IMG/VR virus record: IMGVR_UViG_3300046171_000252
Coordinates: 62,001-126,000 of that record
Reading direction: 5' to 3' (one strand)
Length of the DNA: 64,000 nt
Source: a virus
Shown here: piece by piece, positions 61,544-62,656 of the stretch
How positions within the stretch are numbered: the stretch's first letter is position 1
How the letters are laid out: every line of letters begins with the position of its first letter
The notes under the pieces: model-generated
Databases searched by the model: none
What the model was told of the DNA's origin: nothing
Seen by the model: only the letters and a program-made list of their open reading frames with translations
Position numbers and translations under genes: made by a program

Positions 61544-61978
61544 ATGGGAAACCTTGCACGGTATACTGCTGCGGACCTACCTGCGTTGATGGAACGCATA
61601 AATAGGAATAGCATAGGAATGGATGAATACTTCGATAGGTTGTTTAATCTCCACGAAACAACGAAGAATTATCCACCATTTAATCTAGTCACGGTCAGCG
61701 CAGTAGAATCACGACTAGAACTTGCACTTGCAGGATTTAGAAAAGCAGAAGTAAATGTCTACACACAAGACGGAAAACTCTTTGTCGAAGGACAAAAAGA
61801 GGACACCGAATCAGAAACGACTTATGTCCACAGAGGAATGGCTCAACGATCTTTCACCAGATCTTGGACACTGGCAGAGGATACGGAAGTTAGATCAGTT
61901 GAATTTGAGGATGGGTTGTTAAGTATTGTTCTGGGAAGAATTGTGCCCGAACATCATCAAAAGAAGGTCTGGTTTTGA
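61544..61978 (+). CDS. hsp20: Small heat shock protein (Hsp20 family)
   Basis: The 144-residue protein has an alpha-crystallin-type core. It includes YPPFNLVTVSAVESRLELAL, then VNVYTQDGKLFVEGQKEDTE, RGMAQRSFTRSWTLAEDTEV and FEDGLLSIVLGRIVPEHH, with the R-S-F-x-R and G-L-L-x-I patterns of the family. The ATG at 61544 has AGGAG eight bases upstream, which favours it over an in-frame start at 61493. Hsp20 is common in T4-like cyanophages and probably helps protein folding late in infection. Confidence 0.93.
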   Translation: MGNLARYTAADLPALMERINRNSIGMDEYFDRLFNLHETTKNYPPFNLVTVSAVESRLELALAGFRKAEVNVYTQDGKLFVEGQKEDTESETTYVHRGMAQRSFTRSWTLAEDTEVRSVEFEDGLLSIVLGRIVPEHHQKKVWF

Positions 61979-62001: not shown

Positions 62002-62047
62002 GTTGATACAGAAGTGTATCAACATGATACACTATACTCTATATAAT
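62002..62047 (+). promoter_or_regulatory. Promoter with perfect inverted repeat (operator-like)
   Basis: GTTGATACA (62002-62010) and TGTATCAAC (62015-62023) form a perfect 9-bp inverted repeat around GAAG. A further TGATACA copy lies at 62025-62031. The downstream arm overlaps a -35-like TCAACA (62019-62024), which is followed after 17 bases by a perfect TATAAT (62042-62047). This arrangement suggests a sigma70 promoter controlled by a dimeric repressor or activator. No T tract follows the repeat. Confidence 0.62.
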
Positions 62048-62071
62048 TATGTAATCGATTAGGAGGTATTA

Positions 62072-62155
62072 ATGAACTTCACCACCACTGCCTTAGCAGC
62101 TGGAACTCTAATGACTATTTTTATTGGAGTTCCCATTACTACATTTGTTTCTTAG
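62072..62155 (+). CDS. Tiny single-helix membrane peptide (27 aa)
   Basis: The peptide MNFTTTALAAGTLMTIFIGV followed by PITTFVS is nearly all one hydrophobic helix. The start has a perfect AGGAGG (62061-62066) five bases upstream, the best ribosome-binding site in the window, which strongly supports translation. It resembles small subunits of photosynthetic complexes only in size and hydrophobicity; I do not recognise it as any known one. It is followed three bases later by a second tiny gene. Confidence 0.62.
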   Translation: MNFTTTALAAGTLMTIFIGVPITTFVS

Positions 62156-62158
62156 CAC

Positions 62159-62233
62159 ATGGAAATCTTAGCAACCTTTGTCATTTTTGGCGCAGTAATG
62201 AGTGGAGCATTTGCACTCACCCCTAAAAAATAA
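62159..62233 (+). CDS. Tiny single-helix membrane peptide (24 aa)
   Basis: The 24-residue peptide (MEILATFVIFGAVMSGAFAL, then TPKK) consists of one hydrophobic helix with a basic end. It starts three bases after the preceding stop and has no ribosome-binding site of its own, so coupled translation is likely. Its small size keeps confidence limited, but the shared unit with its own promoter and terminator supports it. Confidence 0.5.
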   Translation: MEILATFVIFGAVMSGAFALTPKK

Positions 62234-62268
62234 ATACTAAATAAAACTGAATATCGTCGTCGCAGATG

Positions 62269-62310
62269 GAGGGGTAACTGGCAAAATCCAGTTAATGCCC
62301 CTCTTTTTTT
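62269..62310 (+). terminator. Strong terminator after the tiny membrane peptides
   Basis: GAGGGG-TAACTGG (62269-62281) pairs with CCAGTTA-CCCCTC (62288-62303), with a three-base bulge ATG, and is followed by seven T residues. It closes the small transcription unit. Confidence 0.88.
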
Positions 62311-62341: not shown

Positions 62342-62656
62342 ATGCTATCTACTCAGTATAGATTGAGATTAGAGTTCATCTGTAAATGTATTGCTAATGG
62401 TGAGGAAGTAAAATTAGATGACATGATTTGGGCAGAGAAACTAGCAAAGAGTCATACTACTGCTAGAGATTGGTTGCAAAAAGCACGGAGACAATCTGCT
62501 CAACAGATTGAAGAAGGTAGTGCAGATGATTTTCTGAATAGGATGGGATTAGGTGATCCCGACCCATCCAATCATAAAACGGGATTTACTGATGCTGATG
62601 ATATTAAAGATTGGTTTCATACTGACAAACCTGATGATTGGAGGCAACGTGATTAA
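62342..62656 (+). CDS. Conserved cyanophage protein (104 aa)
   Basis: The ATG at 62342 is preceded by GAGAGGAG and is preferred over an in-frame TTG at 62309, which lies in the terminator T tract. The product MLSTQYRLRLEFICKCIANG, then EEVKLDDMIWAEKLAKSHTT and WLQKARRQSAQQI is helical and ends in an acidic, Trp-rich segment (IKDWFHTDKPDDWRQRD). A conserved cyanophage family of unknown function is the best description. It overlaps the next gene by one base. Confidence 0.75.
   Translation: MLSTQYRLRLEFICKCIANGEEVKLDDMIWAEKLAKSHTTARDWLQKARRQSAQQIEEGSADDFLNRMGLGDPDPSNHKTGFTDADDIKDWFHTDKPDDWRQRD

Follow-up and report, generated by a model that had tools for sequence, protein, structure and literature searches.

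What is encoded in the short stretch between hsp20 and the next ORF of this viral genome, and what would a phage gain by carrying it? The record (IMG/VR IMGVR_UViG_3300046171_000252; 207,616 bases) comes from a T4-like marine cyanophage whose closest isolates by the major capsid gene are S-SCSM2R and S-SKS1 (~79-82% DNA identity). The window analysed here is a stretch of 64,000 nucleotides, positions 62001-126000 of the record. The unit of interest, at 62002-62310 of the window, is preceded by hsp20, with regA further upstream, and followed by an ORF starting at 62342. An earlier note described it as a self-contained unit with an inverted repeat, a perfect AGGAGG, peptides of 27 and 24 residues (here A and B) and a strong terminator, and all of these are present (Table 1). 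"Self-contained" is not quite right, because the terminator is common to other loci and older than the cassette: operator, A and B form a fixed block, and the terminator is conserved on its own. We regard the anatomy of the cassette, its conservation and its selection as very nearly certain.

Table 1. Features of the cassette locus (window coordinates)
Feature	Position	Strand	Remark
hsp20, cyanomyovirus core gene	61544..61978	+	directly 5' of the cassette; in relatives the 3' element serves as its terminator
Putative operator, three half-sites TTGATACA-N4-TGTATCA-N3-TGATACA	62002..62031	+	overlaps the -35 position
-10 box TATAAT	62042..62047	+	TAAATA or TAGATA at the same place in relatives
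Ribosome-binding site AGGAGG	62061..62066	+	5 nt upstream of the peptide A ATG (62072)
Peptide A, 27 aa, MNFTTTALAAGTLMTIFIGVPITTFVS	62072..62155	+	single helix, no charges
Peptide B, 24 aa, MEILATFVIFGAVMSGAFALTPKK	62159..62233	+	single helix, basic tail; starts 3 nt past the A stop
3' element: CTAAATA (late-promoter-like), leader TGAATATCGTCGTCGC, hairpin 62268-62303, U-run	62237..62310	+	not cassette-specific
Leader of the 3' element, TGAATATCG			
CTAAATA copies in the window	38110, 43916, 60816, 62237, 62315		mostly just before genes

Direct reading and a repeat search both recovered a perfect 9-bp inverted repeat, GTTGATACA-GAAG-TGTATCAAC, at 62002-62010 and 62015-62023. A second 9-bp pair (62013-62021/62025-62033) overlaps the first and adds a third half-site, TGATACA (62025-62031). 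The perfect repeat previously placed over the -35 position is therefore real, but its half-sites number three, not two; they alternate, with centres 11 and 10 bases apart, and span the -35 position upstream of the TATAAT box. The best -35-like hexamer, TCAACA (62019-62024), falls inside the repeat, 17 bp from TATAAT. The promoter had been called sigma70-like; its -35 is weak (4/6 match) and the match alone is unremarkable. One promoter-like match of such quality was found against 1.9 expected by chance, and the case therefore depends on comparison.

The operator is kept in 87 distinct promoter regions. Its arms are conserved as sequence, and the variant TTGCTACA stands opposite an unchanged TGTATCA, that is, without compensation. 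This disfavors an RNA hairpin, and a DNA site bound by a protein is the preferred interpretation. Within the phage genome (207.6 kb) the operator occurs once, with no second copy at fewer than three mismatches, and no exact match was found in 251 picocyanobacterial genomes. One-mismatch matches in the same 251 genomes were about as numerous as expected, on an estimate that assumes uniform base composition. A scan of 257 Gb of genome contigs returned scattered matches in unrelated bacteria, at the chance level for so short a pattern, and these were set aside. Given no near copy in the phage and no exact picocyanobacterial copy, the putative regulator is probably a phage product, or else it binds degenerate sites. 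A MarR-type regulator described in cyanophages gives no motif with which the operator could be compared (PMC9692554). In the cassette-bearing phage RN05-S, a gene annotated as ParB/Spo0J-family lies between regA and hsp20 (L005, 1235-2320). The -10 region varies among relatives (TATATAATT, TAAATAATT or TAGATAGTT), which suggests that this box may serve both a sigma70-type and a late gp55-type polymerase. Such dual use has been reported for the psbA promoter of S-PM2 (PMC5931967).

The earlier note had proposed a search of cyanophage genomes for the same peptides and repeat, and the operator and both peptides proved to be conserved in isolates and in uncultured viral contigs. The isolates S-B43, S-B05, RB11-B and RN05-S carry the unit, unannotated, at 73% DNA identity, with a peptide B 75% identical to that of the window. 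The three-half-site operator was present in at least 119 IMG/VR stretches. Because operator searches select for operators, the 36 stretches found through peptide B alone are the fair test. In every one of the 36, the operator differs at no more than one of 22 positions and peptide A begins precisely 87 nt before B; in 32 of them the distance to the 3' element is also the same. The operator starts 25-76 bp past the end of hsp20 in 143 loci, and 27 or 28 bp past it in 123 of these. Among loci chosen by hsp20 alone, 20 of 76 have the operator cassette. In this context the cassette is modular, with A and B, A only, B only, or an additional third peptide. Carried by about a quarter of hsp20 loci, some with A or B alone, the cassette is dispensable and the pairing loose. 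The cassette of S-SCSM2R is followed by a short ORF and then by an annotated ndhD, and at another locus (L178) the ORF 3' of the cassette is probably ferredoxin-like, judged by its CRAGACSTC motif. At five loci (L102, L111, L132, L168, L181) a third membrane peptide of 41 aa, of the MINDIKSSALAFVYAWAVILVPLVLVSSIVSLANPQTQESI type, follows B; L033 and L156 encode a further type of cassette peptide, MELFIVAAVFIPFSALVMNSFNDESEDDFDFL, that ends in an acidic FDFL tail. At L120 (6770 onward) the operator is followed almost at once by sequence like the 3' element, and A and B are absent.

The differences among relatives of A and B cluster at third codon positions, and both peptides are under purifying selection (A, pN/pS 0.26, Fisher p 5e-24, 44 independent pairs; B, pN/pS 0.25, Fisher p 7e-10, 21 independent pairs). 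A and B are thus proteins and not chance frames. Distinct sequences were counted, which is safer because some contigs were fetched twice: 87 ORF products for A, some extended at the N-terminus, and 52 for B. Each peptide has the hydropathy of a single transmembrane helix (best 19-residue value 1.86 for A and 2.08 for B), a property that is not family-specific. The retained residues include MN-F/L-T and G11, and, in B, GA and T. The gap of 3 nt between the two genes suggests that their translation is coupled. Of the proposed "regulated, highly translated function", the conserved operator, spacing and peptides support regulation and translation. A tblastn search of the phage collection with the window's peptide A gave no matches, the query being too short and diverged.

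The 3' element has a wider distribution than the cassette. Its hairpin (-23.2 kcal/mol, z = -3.9), with a U-run to 62310, has the form of an intrinsic terminator, and the stem shows compensatory changes in 19 diverse copies, with double changes at 5 of 10 pairs. The hsp20 stop directly joins CTAAATA-N-TGAATATCGTCG-hairpin-U-run in three phages, S-SKS1, S-SM2 and Bellamy; relative to them, the window has the cassette cleanly inserted at this junction. The element is older than the cassette and is found in most cyanomyoviruses. The strong terminator claimed for the unit is therefore real in its hairpin and U-run, but it does not belong to the cassette. The 3' element matches 315 phage records. 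In phages it sits either behind hsp20 or in the interval that separates hli/gp212 from gp214-gp215-psbA, and on metagenomic contigs it also follows other genes.

Upstream of the hairpin, the leader contains an invariant TATCGTCGnCGC, and the hairpin loop is TGGCAMAATCCA. Of 118 distinct elements, 116 have TAAATA 5' of the leader, with a spacing of exactly 10 nt in 91; only 1.6% of background windows do. A TATAAATA-like -10 motif with constant spacing marks T4-type late promoters, and the 3' element has one. Elsewhere in the window, genes that we take, from recognition of their proteins, to be gp18-, gp20- and gp22-like have TATAAATA-like motifs 21-43 nt upstream. CTAAATA is strongly under-represented in the window (5 copies against 17.5 expected); one copy is inside the 3' element and another is before the next gene, and most copies stand just before genes, where a late promoter motif would be expected. 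On the simplest reading, the 3' element would be a late promoter directly 5' of a terminator, giving a late RNA of ~60 nt with the leader GAAUAUCGUCGnCGC; alternatively, it may be a conserved terminator with a leader for RNA stability. No Rfam family scored above threshold for it.

The cassette also occupies a second genomic place. The gap between gp212 and the 3' element encodes, in both S-RIM8 and S-IOM18, a B-type peptide (MALFATAVILFGTFFGAAMLTQSGEE, MALLATALILMGTFAGAAMLTQSGKE) and an A-type peptide (in S-RIM8, MSFTTTTLLFGTASSLFSWALFAPMLS), and it also holds a degenerate operator (in S-RIM8, TTTTGTATCACTATGATACA). Both blocks lie within the hli-petF-psbA cluster, where S-8S29 has an intact A and an intact B and where relatives of these phages carry the cassette too. 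The A peptides of the two contexts are related, with 69% identity over 26 residues between S-RIM8 and S-B43 (E 9e-4). Used as a DNA query, the S-RIM8 block matched 46 records. In 27 the match covers at least 80% of the block, but 16 of these are identical to one another and come almost entirely from S-RIM8 records. The peptide A frame of S-IOM18 (L206, 1909-2001) is shifted near a T run relative to S-8S29, by mutation or sequencing error. Between the cassette and psbA of S-IOM18 lies a gp214-like gene (2099-2674 of the same locus) whose product has a Phage_lysozyme2 domain and a hydrophobic N-terminus.

Relatives of B are also found in bacterial genomes. The B profile detected 23-aa relatives (MEILAVIAIVGAAFGGAAALTKK) in three cyanobacterial genomes of 2.4 Mb (E 1.5e-7 to 5e-7), one with terminator-like sequence 3' of it. 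With host rows added, the profile reached seven genomes at E 1e-9 to 1e-11; five of the seven had supplied rows, so that only G608 and G614 are new. These genomes appear to be those of marine Synechococcus-type picocyanobacteria. GC content around the B loci of the 2.4-Mb genomes is ~0.60, far above that of the AT-rich phage DNA, and the loci thus lack the appearance of recent phage insertions. No recognisable photosynthesis genes were found among the neighbours of picocyanobacterial B genes. In G292 and G543 (L435, L463), the B gene overlaps (ATGA) a gene for a second membrane microprotein of 27 aa, MTYTVASLAIAFVVSSFCYWLMLPLMH. This peptide resembles A modestly (3 of 2000 shuffles reach the score), and the A profile search did not detect it. 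Peptides of exactly 27 aa that resemble A occur in G366 and G322 (MSFSLTTILIGAATYLFMHIILSPLLS and a second one), at a weak E of 0.025-0.03 per genome. In G261, B is followed by a tiny peptide that is not significantly A-like; a relative of the FDFL-tail peptide is also encoded near this B gene (L499; 0 of 2000 shuffles reach the score). The A profile further matched 77-aa frames in several small genomes, which were serine-rich, lacked the layout of A and were discarded. We are highly confident of the host relationship of B; that of A is weaker. As expected of auxiliary genes, A and B are kept by selection in phages (pN/pS about 0.25) and have relatives in host-type cyanobacteria, clearly for B (E 1e-7) and more weakly for A.

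The peptides matched no family in Pfam, PHROGs or NCBIfam, and a Pfam search with 19 members gave no match for any of them. Photosystem families in Pfam and NCBIfam gave no matches at E up to 10, and none of the recognised photosystem, b6f and NDH families was matched. In a profile search of the PDB, the best matches of A were PsbT chains (E 0.057-0.07), over 17 residues only. No photosystem subunit was matched by B, and homology to solved photosystem subunits does not extend to full length for either peptide. Membership of A in PsbT was judged insufficiently supported by 17 residues at E about 0.06 and serves as a lead only. The earlier idea of photosystem-like peptides thus gains from the position of the cassette in the hli-petF-psbA cluster and from the picocyanobacterial relatives of B, but loses from the lack of a photosystem family match.

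Lying beside a chaperone gene or photosystem genes, the cassette probably tunes host membrane function during infection. The explanation that we favor, with a probability of about 0.4, is a regulated cassette of host-related membrane microproteins that acts on a host energy-converting complex. RNA polymerase at the overlapping -10/-35 region would be controlled by a regulator that binds the operator DNA, and one mRNA would give A and B by coupled translation. The peptides would insert into a host membrane, most likely the thylakoid, where together they could form accessory or regulatory helices on the complex and keep or retune it during infection. Genomic position is what points to a photosynthetic or energy complex, and that role for A and B is put forward tentatively. 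A fuller account, which we consider rather unlikely, is that phages repeatedly acquired, at two places and under a private operator, members of a previously undescribed picocyanobacterial microprotein set. Its genes would sometimes stand side by side and its role would be the control of a host membrane complex; the separate late-promoter/terminator element that closes the cassette would produce a short late RNA in most cyanomyoviruses.

Other functions for such peptides were considered. A and B may alter inner-membrane permeability as lysis, pore or superinfection-exclusion peptides, which the operator would restrain until they are required. The peptides are tiny and hydrophobic and carry few charges or none, the operator overlies the promoter, and the psbA-cluster cassette is followed by a Phage_lysozyme2-domain gene (the gp214-like gene of S-IOM18); all three would suit this role. 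However, no lysozyme gene adjoins the cassette among annotated neighbours in the hsp20 context, B relatives are chromosomal in picocyanobacteria, and no holin or lysis family of Pfam, PHROGs or NCBIfam was matched. Specific residues are also retained in both peptides, which suggests a specific partner, and we consider this function improbable. We give as little weight to modulators of a protease or chaperone that might bind FtsH or an insertase and so protect phage-made D1 and Hli. Lambda CIII, MgtR and SpoVM are tiny membrane peptides of this kind, the size of A and B is typical of them, and the neighbours of the cassette, hsp20 (a chaperone) or psbA/hli, are linked to protein turnover, but no sequence resemblance came out positive. 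It is very unlikely that the ORFs, which precede a conserved terminator hairpin, act not as proteins but as a translated leader controlling the mRNA or a downstream gene: substitutions are strongly synonymous, most phages have the terminator without the ORFs, the downstream genes differ between cassette copies, and picocyanobacterial B stands alone with terminator-like sequence. Chance ORFs beside a chance repeat, conceivable where AT-rich DNA yields promoter-like matches of equal quality, are refuted by conservation and selection and have a negligible probability.

For almost all copies, published isolates included, either no gene is annotated over the stretch or the annotation is for something else, so that gene callers have overlooked a protein pair that is under selection in viruses abundant in the ocean. 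As a defined target of very small size, the cassette lends itself to tests of how host membranes are tuned by phages, and uncharacterised microproteins are indicated in marine Synechococcus-type genomes. The conserved operator offers a handle for finding a cyanophage transcription regulator.

Among known systems, PsbT is similar in length to A and likewise has one helix. The tail of PsbT is charged and proline-rich; A lacks such a tail and has no charged residues. The photosynthesis auxiliary genes of cyanophages (psbA, hli and petF) have a host-related membrane function, as the cassette probably does, and surround it in S-RIM8, S-IOM18 and S-8S29, whereas the cassette encodes microproteins under its own operator and adjoins hsp20 in the window. 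CP12 is soluble, is larger than A and B, and has a known target. Like A and B, it is a small host-related protein carried by phages (PMC7760959), whereas A and B are predicted membrane helices. The 3' element resembles T4-type late (gp55) promoters in its TATAAATA/CTAAATA motif, but here nothing follows the motif except a conserved short leader and a terminator. As a candidate non-coding RNA that also occurs near psbA in cyanophages, it may be compared with cfrI of S-PM2; cfrI is antisense and lies on the 3' side of psbA (PMC5931967), whereas the 3' element is sense, intergenic and present at several loci.
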